From a candidate division LCP-89 bacterium B3_LCP (GTDB lineage Bacteria; Electryoneota; B3-LCP): DNA of 64,000 nt. Below, one piece after another: positions 28,194 to 41,798 of this stretch (positions are counted from its first letter, which is position 1; every line of letters starts with the position of its first letter). The DNA lies in the NCBI GenBank assembly GCA_005223185.1, contig NJBN01000001.1:505365-569364 (forward strand), read 5' to 3'. A program made the translations under genes and the position numbers. The notes under the pieces were generated by a model. That model saw only the letters and a list, made by a program, of their open reading frames with translations, did not search any database and had not been told where the DNA came from.

Positions 28194-29603
28194 TTACATA
28201 TGTTTGATAATAGCATCGCCGAACTGGGAGCACTTGAGTTCCTGGCATTCAATCCCTTCAGCTTTCATCAGACGGGCGAAATCGTAGGTGACGGTATGTG
28301 CCTGAATGGCTCCGTTGAGACCCTTCAGAATTAGATTTGCAACTTCATCCCAGCCCAGGTGCTGGAACATCAGAACGCCAGACAGGATGACGGATCCCGG
28401 ATTGACCTTGTCCAGGTTAGCGTATTTGGGCGCCGTGCCATGCGTGGCTTCGAAGATGGCGTGACCACTGACGTAATTGATATTACCTCCGGGAGCAATC
28501 CCGATGCCTCCCACCTGAGCCGCCAACGCATCAGACACGTAATCACCATTCAAGTTCATGGTGGCGATCACGTCGAATTCTTTAGCGCGGGTCAGCACCT
28601 GCTGTAGGGTTATGTCAGCAATGGTATCCTTGATCATCAACATGGACTTCCATTTACCGTCACCGTGGGTATCCCATAACTTCAGAGCTTCTTCGACTTC
28701 GGCGTCAGCTTCCTTCTGTTTATCAGGAACCAACAGGTCGTATCCCGGCTCGATCATGCGGGCGTTATCCTGCGCGGAAATATCGGGGTGATCCTCTTTG
28801 TTCCCCAGAATCCAGCTTTCCCGCAGAGTAACCGTTTCGTTGCGAAACTCTTTGGCGGCGACCTGATATCCCCAATCTTTAAAGGCGCCTTCGGTGAACT
28901 TCATGATGTTGCCTTTGTGTACGAAGGTAACGCTCTTGCGGTTCAGCCTCAAAGCGTATTGAATGGCTGCGCGTACCAAGCGGCTGGTGCCTTCTTCGGA
29001 TACGGGTTTGATGCCGATACCGGAAGTTTCCGGAAAGCGTATATTTTTAACGCCCATCTCCTTCTGCAAGAATTCTATCACTTTTTTCACTTCAGGGCTG
29101 CCCGCCTGCCATTCGACTCCGGCGTAGATATCTTCGGTATTTTCGCGGAAGATGACCATGTCCACGTCTTGAGGTTTGCGCACCGGGCTGGGCACGCCTT
29201 TGAAATAGCGCACCGGACGCAGACAGACGTAGAGATCCAAAATCTGCCGTAAGGCGACGTTCAATGATCGTATCCCTCCGCCGATGGGAGTGGTCAGAGG
29301 TCCTTTGATACCGACCAGGAATTCTTTATAGGCATTGACAGTATCATCGGGAAGCCAGGAACCGGTGGCTTTGAAGGCTTTTTCACCGGCTAAGACTTCA
29401 AACCAACTGATCTTCTTTTGACCGCTGAACGCCTTTTGGACAGCAGCATCGAATACGCGCACGGATGACCGCCATATATCCGGGCCAGTTCCGTCACCTT
29501 CGATGAAGGGAATGATGGGATTATCGGGCACTTGCAATTTGTCAGCGCCCATGGTTATGGGTTTACCTTCTTTTGGATAAGATAAGTGTTCAAATTGTAT
29601 CAT
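28194..29603 (-). CDS. icd: NADP-dependent isocitrate dehydrogenase
   Basis: 469 residues, against about 416 in E. coli; the extra length is an insertion of roughly 50 residues after [20 protein letters not shown], as in cyanobacterial-type enzymes. Isocitrate binding ([18 protein letters not shown]), Lys in [11 protein letters not shown], and [18 protein letters not shown] are intact. The residues after HGTAPKYA and in TVTYDFARL match the NADP-specific set. A strong GGAGG precedes the ATG. It converts isocitrate to 2-oxoglutarate, the substrate of Kor. Aconitase is encoded nearby on the same strand but separated by a flavin oxidoreductase gene and repeats. Confidence 0.96.
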
Positions 29604-29730
29604 TTTTCCTCCACGGAATTGTTAGTTCCGGTTGTTTATTTATTTGTGTTATTGCTGAATCGGTATTAGGGTGTCAGGTCTCATTCCGGTGATGAACATT
29701 AACTATTTATTCTTACGTTTATCACGGTAA

Positions 29731-29976
29731 CCCCAGAATGAATTCTGGGGCTTAAACCAGTCAAGATCACTGAAGTGATCATCCTGTTATTTCTATCTGT
29801 TGGACTGCACCCTAAAGGGCTTAGTCCAACCTACTGGTCTATGGCACCAGGTCACATTCTTTACCGGCTTTTATCTGGCAGCTTTTTACCACCCGGAAAT
29901 GAATTTCCGGGCTAATTTTATGCTATCCCGCTCAAGCGGGATGTTCAAAAACCTTTATGTTCGTCGGTTGACGAAC
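29731..29976. repeat. Cluster of six short palindromes, three with TGAA loops
   Basis: Read from the sequence: CCCCAGAA-tgaa-TTCTGGGG (29731-29750), GATCAC-tgaa-GTGATC (29765-29780), TTGGACT...AGTCCAA with an inner CCCT/AGGG (29800-29829), CCCGGAAA-tgaa-TTTCCGGG (29892-29911), ATCCCGCT-ca-AGCGGGAT (29925-29942), GTTCGTC-ggtt-GACGAAC (29959-29976). The stems differ in sequence but three share the same tetraloop and each is 16-30 nt. None has a T-run, so these are REP-like or decayed mobile elements rather than terminators. Confidence 0.8.
29820..29840. repeat. 21-bp direct repeat, left copy
   Basis: CTTAGTCCAACCTACTGGTC plus T; it matches 31140-31160 at 20 of 21 positions. The two copies lie on either side of the flavin oxidoreductase gene. 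This copy starts inside the right arm of the TTGGACT/AGTCCAA palindrome. Confidence 0.75.
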
Positions 29977-30002
29977 AGGCCCTGACGCAACTGAAAACCC
30001 TA

Positions 30003-31112
30003 TTAAGCCATATCAGATGGAGCTATTTTCACAGATGCAGCCTCATCATATTCTTTTAATAAATCCCGGATGAGTTCTTTAACAGAGACAATTTTTTGTG
30101 TGCGATATGCATTTGCACCGGCAAAGGCAAAACCGTGTTTAAGCCTTCCCTTTTTGGCATTTGTTAAGGCGAAAGCAATGCAGTAGGGCGCTTCTTTATA
30201 ATCGCAGGTTCTCAGGCATTTCCAGGGGCAGCTAAAGGGTTTTTTAATGCCATTGGAAACATCCTTGAGAAACTGGTTGCGCAAGGCTCTTCCCGGCAAC
30301 CCTACCGGACTGTCAATTATAATCAGATCATCTCTCTTGCTATTCAGGTACATCTCTTTAAATTCAATAGAGGCGTCGCACTCGTGAGTGCCCACAAATC
30401 TGGTTGCCATTTGCACACCCTGAGCGCCCATCTGAATGAATTTATAAATATCTGCTCCAGTATATATACCTCCCGCTACAATCACAGGAATATCCTTATT
30501 GAATTGCTCTTTAAATGGTTTTAGCACAGAAATAACTTCTGGTAAGATCTTATCCAGTTTATAATCATGATCATCAATCTGTTCCTTTTTAAAGCCGATA
30601 TGTCCACCAGCCAGAGGCCCCTCCACGACTACACCGTTGGGTATATGATTATATTTCTTCGCCCAATATTGAAATATGATTCTTACAGCTCTCGCTGAAG
30701 AAACAATGGGGACAACCTTAGTTGACATATTTCTCAATCTATCCAGCGATAATTCCTTGGGGATATTTAGTGGAAGCCCTGCACCAATGAATATTACATC
30801 TGCTTTTTCATTCACGGCAACCATCATAAGTTCATTAAAATCTGAAAGCGCCACCATTAGATTTACGCCTATAATCCCATCGGTCATTTCCCTGGCTTTT
30901 CTTATTTCTTTCTTCAGGGCTCTTTGGTTCGCTCCGGTAAAATTTTTATTAAAATCAGGTTCAAGCATACCGATGCCAGCAGCGCCAATTACCCCAATGC
31001 CCCCCTCATTTGCCACTGCTGAAGCCAACCCTGAGAGAGAAATCCCAACGCTCATTCCTCCTTGAATGATGGGGATTTTGACTACATGTTCACCAATAAC
31101 CAATTTCGGCAT
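30003..31112 (-). CDS. Nitronate monooxygenase-family NAD(P)H-dependent flavin oxidoreductase
   Basis: 369 residues, TIM-barrel FMN enzyme. It has IIQGGMSVGISLSGLASAVA (15-34), VVVEGPLAGGHIGF, VIVAGGIYTGADIYKFIQMG and GVQMATRFVGTHECD, the standard phosphate-binding and flavin segments. A Cys-rich insert FSCPWKCLRTCDYKEAPYC near the C-terminus is typical of the bacterial YrpB/2-nitropropane-dioxygenase branch; the enzyme reaction in this branch is not firmly known. The gene looks more AT-rich than icd and aconitase on either side and is flanked by direct repeats, suggesting later insertion. Confidence 0.88.
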   Translation of the reverse strand: MPKLVIGEHVVKIPIIQGGMSVGISLSGLASAVANEGGIGVIGAAGIGMLEPDFNKNFTGANQRALKKEIRKAREMTDGIIGVNLMVALSDFNELMMVAVNEKADVIFIGAGLPLNIPKELSLDRLRNMSTKVVPIVSSARAVRIIFQYWAKKYNHIPNGVVVEGPLAGGHIGFKKEQIDDHDYKLDKILPEVISVLKPFKEQFNKDIPVIVAGGIYTGADIYKFIQMGAQGVQMATRFVGTHECDASIEFKEMYLNSKRDDLIIIDSPVGLPGRALRNQFLKDVSNGIKKPFSCPWKCLRTCDYKEAPYCIAFALTNAKKGRLKHGFAFAGANAYRTQKIVSVKELIRDLLKEYDEAASVKIAPSDMA

Positions 31113-31139: not shown

Positions 31140-31160
31140 CTTAGTCCAACCTACTTGTCT
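31140..31160. repeat. 21-bp direct repeat, right copy
   Basis: CTTAGTCCAACCTACTTGTC plus T; it differs from 29820-29840 at one position. It lies 28 bp upstream of the start of the flavin oxidoreductase gene. A small GAATC/GATTC hairpin follows directly. Confidence 0.75.
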
Positions 31161-40397: not shown

Positions 40398-41582
40398 ATG
40401 AGTACTCAGGATAATAAAGGGATAACGGCTATCATAGTAGCTGCTGGCAGCGGCGTGCGTCTGTCTGCTGACTGCCCTAAACCGCTGATTCAATTGGGGA
40501 ATCGTCCTCTGGTATCGTTCTCATTGGAAGCTTTTGAATTGTCCCCGAAGATCGGGAACATAGTGTTGGTCGCCGGGCAGAAATGGCTTAAAGAAGCTGA
40601 TGACATAAGCAGGACCTGGGCGCCCACCAAACTGTTTTCCATTGTTAAGGGTGGCAAAGAAAGATTCGATTCAGTTCGAGCCGGGATGGATAAGTTGCCG
40701 GATAATTGCAGAATCGTGGCGGTGCATGATGCTGCCAGACCGTTCATCAGCCAGCGAATAATCAACGATACTATCGGAGCTCTCGGTAAATTTCACGGTG
40801 CTGTGCCGGGAATACCGTTAGTGGATACTCTAAAAATTCAAAGCGAAGGGCTTTCCAGAGGGACGCGGGACAGGAATCAGTTCACAATGACCCAGACGCC
40901 GCAGTGCTTTCACCGGGAGATACTGGAGGAGGCATTCAGGTTAGCTGATAAAGATGGGTTTTCAGGCACCGATGACGCTTCCTATGTGGAAAGGCTGCCG
41001 GGCGCCAGAATCGCCATAGTGGATGGTGATCCTGACAACTATAAGATTACTACTGAATATGATCTCAATCGAGCCAGAACTATGCTTGCTAATTCAATAT
41101 CACATGGCTACCGCTGTGGTGAAGGGTATGACGCTCACCGTTTGGTTCCTGATAGACCGTTGATGCTGGGTGGTGTGAATATTCCCTTTGATAGAGGTTT
41201 GGAAGGTCATTCGGATGCTGACGTACTCTGTCATGCCATCAGTGATGCGCTGTTGGGTGCGGCGGCATTAGGGGATTTAGGTGCACACTTTCCCGATAGT
41301 GATCCCGCATACAAAAATATTTCCAGCGTTCTTCTGCTGGAAAAGATACACGAAATGCTTAAGGATAGCGGATTTTCAATTTCCAACGTGGATGCGACAT
41401 TGATTCTGCAAAAACCGAAAGTTGCCCCGTATATTAAGGAAATGAAGGTTAATCTGGCGAAAGCACTGCAAACGTCGCCTGAAAATATATCCGTGAAGGC
41501 AACCACTACTGAGGGTATGGGCTTCGAAGGGCGAGCTGAAGGTGTTTCCTGCAGGGTGGTGGTTATGGTGAAGGGGGATTGA
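40398..41582 (+). CDS. ispDF: Bifunctional IspD/IspF (2-C-methyl-D-erythritol 4-phosphate cytidylyltransferase / MECDP synthase)
   Basis: 394 residues fusing two enzymes of the MEP isoprenoid pathway. IspD (about 1-232): AAGSGVRLSADCPKPLIQLG at the N-terminus, VHDAARPF and DPDNYKITTEYD. IspF (about 237-394): GEGYDAHRL, GHSDADVLCHAISDALLGAA, GAHFPDSDPAYK and the C-terminal TTTEGMGFEGR. The non-adjacent pathway enzymes are commonly fused in alpha- and epsilon-proteobacteria; here the fusion occurs outside those groups. It ends a plus-strand run before a bidirectional terminator. Confidence 0.95.
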   Translation: MSTQDNKGITAIIVAAGSGVRLSADCPKPLIQLGNRPLVSFSLEAFELSPKIGNIVLVAGQKWLKEADDISRTWAPTKLFSIVKGGKERFDSVRAGMDKLPDNCRIVAVHDAARPFISQRIINDTIGALGKFHGAVPGIPLVDTLKIQSEGLSRGTRDRNQFTMTQTPQCFHREILEEAFRLADKDGFSGTDDASYVERLPGARIAIVDGDPDNYKITTEYDLNRARTMLANSISHGYRCGEGYDAHRLVPDRPLMLGGVNIPFDRGLEGHSDADVLCHAISDALLGAAALGDLGAHFPDSDPAYKNISSVLLLEKIHEMLKDSGFSISNVDATLILQKPKVAPYIKEMKVNLAKALQTSPENISVKATTTEGMGFEGRAEGVSCRVVVMVKGD

Positions 41583-41597: not shown

Positions 41598-41696
41598 AGC
41601 ACCGGACTGAAGTTCCGGTGCTCACACGAAGCTTCCAATTGACTAAAGTCAATGAACTCTTCCAACCGCACTTGTGAATGAAGTGGTGAGGATTGG
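41598..41696. repeat. Second cluster of short TGAA/AAA-loop palindromes
   Basis: AGCACCGGA...TCCGGTGCT around an actgaagt core (41598-41622), ATTGACT-aa-AGTCAAT (41638-41653), and CACTT-gtgaatg-AAGTG inside CCAA/TTGG (41662-41696). These resemble the hairpins at 29731-29976 in size and loop pattern but not in stem sequence. Confidence 0.6.
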
Positions 41697-41731
41697 TATC
41701 TTAGATCGATAAAATATTTCATTCAAAATAT

Positions 41732-41765
41732 AAAAAGGCATCCCGCAGCAGCGGGATGCCTTTTT
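41732..41765. terminator. Strong bidirectional terminator between ispDF and the first C25 peptidase
   Basis: AAAAAGGCATCCCGC (41732-41746) and its exact complement (41751-41765) form a perfect 15-bp stem with a 4-nt loop AGCA; T-runs on both strands. Confidence 0.93.
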
Positions 41766-41798
41766 ATGCATTCTGATTTCTGTCTTCTGTTTTCTTCC

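Follow-up and report, generated by a model that had tools for sequence, protein, structure and literature searches.

The hairpins that crowd one intergenic region of the window (the whole 64,000-nucleotide stretch analysed) are very probably copies of the end structures of small HUH/Y1 elements. The transposase of these elements would be a 'subclass 1.2' TnpA of the IS200 clade that binds, cleaves and mobilizes them. The hairpins are paired in a constant anatomy, the pairs are associated with TnpA in several phyla and co-occur with it at the level of genomes, and the mismatches in their stems are asymmetric between strands. It is also probable, if with somewhat less assurance, that the Rfam family Acido-Lenti-1 (RF01687) is a single-stranded DNA substrate of subclass-1.2 TnpA and not an RNA, in which case the two together would form a second REP-generating system alongside REP/RAYT in several bacterial phyla.

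Hairpins of the window

The intergenic region at 29604–30002 contains five perfect hairpins (stem ≥7) and one with an interrupted stem within a span of 247 bp (Table 1), between an isocitrate/isopropylmalate dehydrogenase gene (28194–29603) and a nitronate monooxygenase gene (30003–31112) that are both on the minus strand. The sequence-only reading, which had described six hairpins within about 250 bp, three of them with a TGAA centre, was accurate on both counts. At the simulated rate of about 0.35 per kb (stem ≥7, loop 2–6) roughly 0.09 hairpins are expected per 250 bp, and the five found correspond to a Poisson p of about 4e-8. Folding of the window elements as ssDNA is strong (z −3.2 to −7.3).

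The same reading held that such palindromes exceed chance, and an outcome of no excess did not occur. The background was 2.36 Mb of the same genome, under a rough intergenic mask in which genes were approximated by long ORFs, and was compared with a first-order Markov simulation; perfect intergenic hairpins with a stem ≥8 number 298 against about 20 simulated. Among intergenic hairpins with a two-base centre (stem ≥7), TGAA is found 54 times against 0.6 expected, TAAA 50 against 1.2 and CAAG 31 against 0.5, an excess of 40–90 fold given this rough mask.

Table 1. Hairpin elements of the window
Feature	Position	Strand	Description
Unit A, HP1	29731–29750	- (inferred folding strand)	CCCCAGAATGAATTCTGGGG, 9-bp stem, TGAA centre
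Unit A, HP2	29765–29780	-	GATCACTGAAGTGATC, 7-bp stem, TGAA centre
GTAG-type REP	29799–29834	-	interrupted stem GTTGGACT..AGTCCAAC (29799–29830); foot GTAG 29831–29834
Unit B, HP1	29892–29911	-	CCCGGAAATGAATTTCCGGG, TGAA centre
Unit B, HP2	29925–29942	-	ATCCCGCTCAAGCGGGAT, TCAA centre; identical to HP2 adjoining the C15 TnpA gene
Mirrored HP2'	29958–29977	+	TGTTCGTCGGTTGACGAACA; second, truncated half-unit facing unit B
Third two-hairpin unit	41600–41653	-	18 bp past the ispDF stop; E 8e-5 (model R1, rough E-value)

Apart from the GTAG-type REP, the hairpins of the cluster are not independent palindromes; they belong to two-hairpin units, a pairing that had gone unremarked together with the match to Rfam RF01687 described below. 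The layout of a unit is fixed, with HP1 (8–9 bp stem, TNAA centre; in this genome a ..aatRAatt.. core) followed by a linker of about 13–16 nt and then by HP2 (7–8 bp). Tail-to-tail pairs of the form HP1-HP2-spacer-HP2'-HP1' are frequent, and other genomic copies of the mirrored HP2' run on into a mirrored HP1'. HP2 of unit A recurs after the same type of HP1 at no fewer than six further sites of the genome. Unit B continues after HP1 as GGG-CTA-linker-HP2, the CTA layout, and unit A has CTT; on the folding strand the foot reads TTAG in unit B and TAAG in unit A, neither of which is the GT[AG]G foot of REPs.

The GTAG-type REP among the six hairpins is a separate element outside the two-hairpin units, a distinction that the sequence-only reading did not draw. 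The genome has 24 copies that match GTAGGTTGGACTAAG exactly or with a single mismatch; when up to three mismatches are allowed, the count shows no excess (126 against 178 in a reversed control), and the copies within one mismatch are the only informative ones. A second exact GTAGGTTGGACTAAG REP head lies on the minus strand at 31140–31154 of the window, upstream of the nitronate monooxygenase gene. An intergenic repeat of the form GCGTCAGGTC...GACCTGACGC, built around variable inner hairpins, has 55 intergenic matches in the 2.36 Mb, and degenerate arms of it at window 29847–29859 and 29978–29991 may enclose unit B, an arrangement that would amount to a nested insertion.

The looser second cluster that had been noticed after ispDF is likewise present as a two-hairpin unit (Table 1), preceded by an ORF (40398–41582) that reads by eye as a putative IspD-IspF fusion. 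Also after ispDF lies a perfect hairpin of 17 bp (41730–41767), whose A-rich and T-rich ends give it the appearance of an intrinsic terminator acting in both directions.

The model R1, a covariance model built without Rfam from 16 units of this genome and with E-values that are rough, has at least 110 copies in the genome and at least 32–74 per genome in five other genera of the family, with 150 candidates scored in each genome. Many half-units lie between genes without a tnpA.

Transposase genes of the same genome

A search for a Y1 transposase, as the sequence-only reading had proposed, returned ten Y1 (PF01797) genes, four of IS200 type and six RAYT-like. The four IS200-type proteins exceed the NCBIfam cut-off of NF033573, and four of the six RAYT-like proteins are above an NCBIfam cut-off. 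R1 units flank three of the four IS200-type genes (L001–L003) on either side, and the fourth (C7) lies between copies of a TGAA-centred hairpin of its own; at four RAYT loci (L005–L008) R1 found no unit. That the same two-hairpin units flank IS200-type TnpA genes supports the earlier suggestion of a single generating mechanism, whether REP-like or a single-strand transposase target. At L001 (1343–1408), adjoining the C15 TnpA, another small palindrome, tccataggACTcctatgga, splits the TGAA loop of an HP1 and seems to be an insertion nested in it.

The C16 TnpA (C16:80729–81169) carries H55-V-H57 and Y115, and the HUH motif and catalytic tyrosine are intact in both C16 and C15. The Y---Q--HH signature takes the form NQxxHH in C15, C16 and C12 and NQPKYH in C7, and the DHVH motif reads DHVH in C16 and C15, EHVH in C12 and NHVH in C7. 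Of these TnpA ORFs C16 alone is full-length and begins with ATG; the start codon of C15 is TTG, and C12 looks shortened. The proteins are homologous to the TnpAs of IS608 and ISDra2, and all five other genera also encode TnpAs like them. The hairpin set seems to be specific to the TnpA lineage: C15 and C16 are accompanied by a cccgggaat HP1 (C15 also by an atcccgct HP2), C12 by agtctct and attgact HP2, and C7 by agcccctt.

Judged by their motifs, these TnpAs match 'subclass 1.2' of TnpA(Y1), with which they share DHVH, WQ and YIxNQxxHH, a length of about 148 aa, low copy number and divergent copies within one genome (PMC6006769). Subclass 1.2 has been described as generally without REP or end structures and as occurring mostly in Cyanobacteria and Bacteroidetes (PMC6006769), whereas here end structures are present and the hosts retrieved are largely Planctomycetota, Acidobacteriota, Verrucomicrobiota and Lentisphaerota.

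TnpA loci in other phyla

A protein scan with the C16/C15 TnpA pair gave 80 foreign loci, selected on the protein only, from Planctomycetota, Acidobacteriota, Verrucomicrobiota, Lentisphaerota, Chlamydiota, Bacteroidota, Calditrichota, Omnitrophota and others. To either side of the foreign tnpA, the longest hairpin, picked regardless of the sequence that follows it, often has the form CC....(TGAA, TTAC or TTC)....GG and is succeeded by CTA and then by a second hairpin, for example GTCCCTCCGGGAC. CTA is present by construction in the sets anchored on it, and it is independent evidence only in this longest-hairpin comparison and in the Rfam model. Both ends of one foreign element often share an HP1 stem, and stems differ between elements.

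Within 300 nt of the foreign TnpA 124 units were detected, where shuffled sequence gives 0.4, and farther out they are 5–8 fold less dense. Anchored detection places a unit beside TnpA in 45 of the 78 loci with full flanks, outward in 42 and at both ends in 20; about 40 per cent of the foreign TnpA loci have no recognisable unit. R1 gives ten matches at the foreign flanks at E<0.02 (again rough), all within 285 nt of TnpA, and L143 is matched on both sides. The foot of foreign units is NTAG, with GTAG in 24 of 56, a set anchored on CTA or CTG and selected for perfect stems in which pairing counts are descriptive only. TTAC, TCAC and TTGC occur as alternative HP1 centres.

In the TnpA tree the unit-bearing proteins fall in more than one clade (15 changes, compared with 25 when the labels are shuffled). 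A search for a conserved cut site brought out no more than a weak TC, which lies a few bases beyond CTA (59 per cent T, 71 per cent C). In a mostly Phycisphaerales clade of TnpAs the ends are of another kind, with CCACGGGTTGC coming after a ctgccccTNCggggcag-type hairpin (L159, L163, L166, L167, L169, L172, L175, L176, L177, L180, L194, L197 and L201).

Relation to Rfam RF01687

No Rfam family matched anywhere in the window at gathering scores. The sole Rfam match near the cluster is RF01687 on HP1 of unit B (29892–29919), at 20.1 bits and below the gathering cut-off of 37, and the best RF01687 score in the genome, 31.4 bits, is also below it. At foreign TnpA flanks RF01687 does score above the cut-off, and R1 in turn matches RF01687-type loci such as L137, L154 and L216. 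The resemblance extends to anatomy: Acido-Lenti-1 shares the layout, in which an 8-bp HP1 with a loop of 4 nt is followed by CUA, a short linker and HP2. It differs in that Rfam models an sRNA, and the modelled strand appears to be the one that does not fold.

Of 20 Acidobacteriota loci picked by their protein only, 11 have RF01687 near TnpA, six of them on both sides. The nearest matches lie 35–177 nt from the gene and 38 of 39 have one mirrored orientation (minus strand in 18 of 19 to the left of TnpA, plus strand in 20 of 20 to the right), with one place (L193 = L253) counted in both RF01687 locus sets. The genome of L193, a locus with an Acidobacteria homologue of TnpA, has two RF01687 matches in total at E≤0.01, both at its TnpA. 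Matches to 'mir-399' in L138 were rejected as an artefact of mirrored units.

The association also holds between genomes. Among 198 Acidobacteriota genomes, 35 have both RF01687 and TnpA, 11 RF01687 only, 8 TnpA only and 144 neither (odds ratio 57, p 1e-21), and among 147 genomes of the class of the Lentisphaeria locus the corresponding numbers are 37, 21, 10 and 79 (odds ratio 14, p 3e-11); genomes with a TnpA known beforehand were omitted as centres, and these odds ratios ignore relatedness.

Acido-Lenti-1 has been listed as a probable RNA (PMC2864571), and its role has been unknown since 2010; a 2026 paper describes its function as little known and mentions copies near protease genes as possible regulators (PMC13298647). 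A link to a transposase is absent from these two papers, and an earlier statement may exist in the subscription literature or in ISfinder.

Which strand folds

In a structure with no strand preference, G-C pairs decay equally often to G.T and to A.C. Single internal mismatches of HP1, read in the Rfam orientation, comprise 17 A.C events and 2 G.T events (p 7e-4), and therefore the complementary strand appears to be the one kept for folding; HP2 mismatches by themselves (4 against 1) are not significantly asymmetric. This suggests that the folding strand is opposite to the strand modelled by Rfam. On that putative folding strand the unit is 5'-HP2-N12-NTAG-HP1, with the foot placed like the GTAG of REPs, and the HP1 loop is TTCA/TTTA or GNNA; the foot also varies within this genome. 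The variants GTAA, GTGA and GCAA, complements of TTAC, TCAC and TTGC, may be compatible with a sheared G.A closing pair. The mismatch asymmetry fits ssDNA or RNA of the folding strand alike, and the transposase link favours DNA.

Proposed mechanism and alternatives

There is reason to think that these elements behave as mobile single-stranded DNA. Each half-unit consists of two hairpins, and two mirrored half-units flank tnpA. When the DNA is single-stranded, as during replication, TnpA would bind a hairpin mainly through its loop and foot, and the TnpA tyrosine would cut and rejoin the strand, so that half-units could spread as REP-like non-autonomous ssDNA elements. The loop and foot that TnpA reads would stay fixed while the stems were free to drift as long as they paired, and such paired drift would explain why the same loop is found on unrelated stems. 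Assays of relatives show TnpA acting on ssDNA hairpins with the 5' foot tetranucleotide as guide, and in some RAYTs certain loop positions are intolerant of change while the effects of stem changes are milder (PMC8266576).

Covarying stems and a conserved linker are also properties of a structured small RNA, as Rfam holds and as the listing of Acido-Lenti-1 as a probable RNA implies (PMC2864571), and the proximity to transposase genes could then be incidental or regulatory, for example if the RNA controlled tnpA. The mismatch asymmetry could in that case reflect G-U pairs in an RNA of the opposite strand, yet it contradicts the strand that Rfam models; such an RNA is also difficult to reconcile with mirrored copies on both sides of a gene, with dozens of intergenic copies per genome and with tail-to-tail pairs, and we regard it as improbable. 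It is more doubtful still that the units are ordinary REPs moved by the genome's RAYTs with the IS200-type genes as bystanders. Six RAYT-like genes are present, as are GTAG REPs (one within the window cluster), and the NTAG foot resembles GTAG; however, R1 units occur at none of four RAYT loci against three of four IS200-type loci, and it was the IS200-type protein that led to the foreign loci.

Intrinsic terminators or mRNA-stabilizing hairpins downstream of the nitronate monooxygenase gene would suit the intergenic position and one terminator-like pattern at 29892. This pattern is on the plus strand, opposite to the minus strand that carries both flanking genes, and a constant loop and linker, two hairpins in a set order, mirrored pairs and a link to a single gene family are not terminator features, which leaves this explanation with very little probability.

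Relation to known repeat systems

End structures of a TnpA-borne element, the reading preferred here, share much with REP/REPIN/BIME repeats and their RAYTs, which are also short multi-copy intergenic palindromes, often in mirrored pairs (PMC8266576; PMC3733652), in which a TAG foot precedes the hairpin on its 5' side, the loop is important and a low-copy Y1 gene is flanked by the repeats. Unlike REPs, the half-units described here have two hairpins and a foot that is NTAG and not strictly GTAG, and an IS200-clade TnpA (Y...Q..HH) takes the place of the RAYT (Y...NP). Elements of the IS200/IS605 type (IS608, ISDra2) and their tnpA-less derivatives resemble them in their homologous TnpA and in hairpins near both gene ends, but here the ends are mirrored and double, TnpA is low-copy and divergent and not a multi-copy IS, and the copies that are dispersed consist of half-units.

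GTAG REPs in the PVC superphylum, and Acidobacteria tyrosine transposases with terminal inverted repeats, have been reported (Di Nocera 2013; PMC3733652), and part of this landscape has therefore been seen earlier under other names. The present reading joins two orphans, an Rfam 'ncRNA' of little known function and a transposase subclass reported without end structures. If it is true, genome annotation would be corrected, REP-like repeats would have arisen around a second branch of HUH/Y1 enzymes, and a direct biochemical test is on offer.

The RAYT gene at L005 (C4:172706–173182) is flanked by GTAGC-gcgggggcTTgcccccgc repeats, with copies on C7, and is a conventional REP/RAYT pair that coexists with the two-hairpin system. 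Another dispersed intergenic family, TCATTGCGAGGA-atcccgc..gcgggat-GACGAAGCAATCTC, recurs at C7:83466, C7:448135 and C7:103541.
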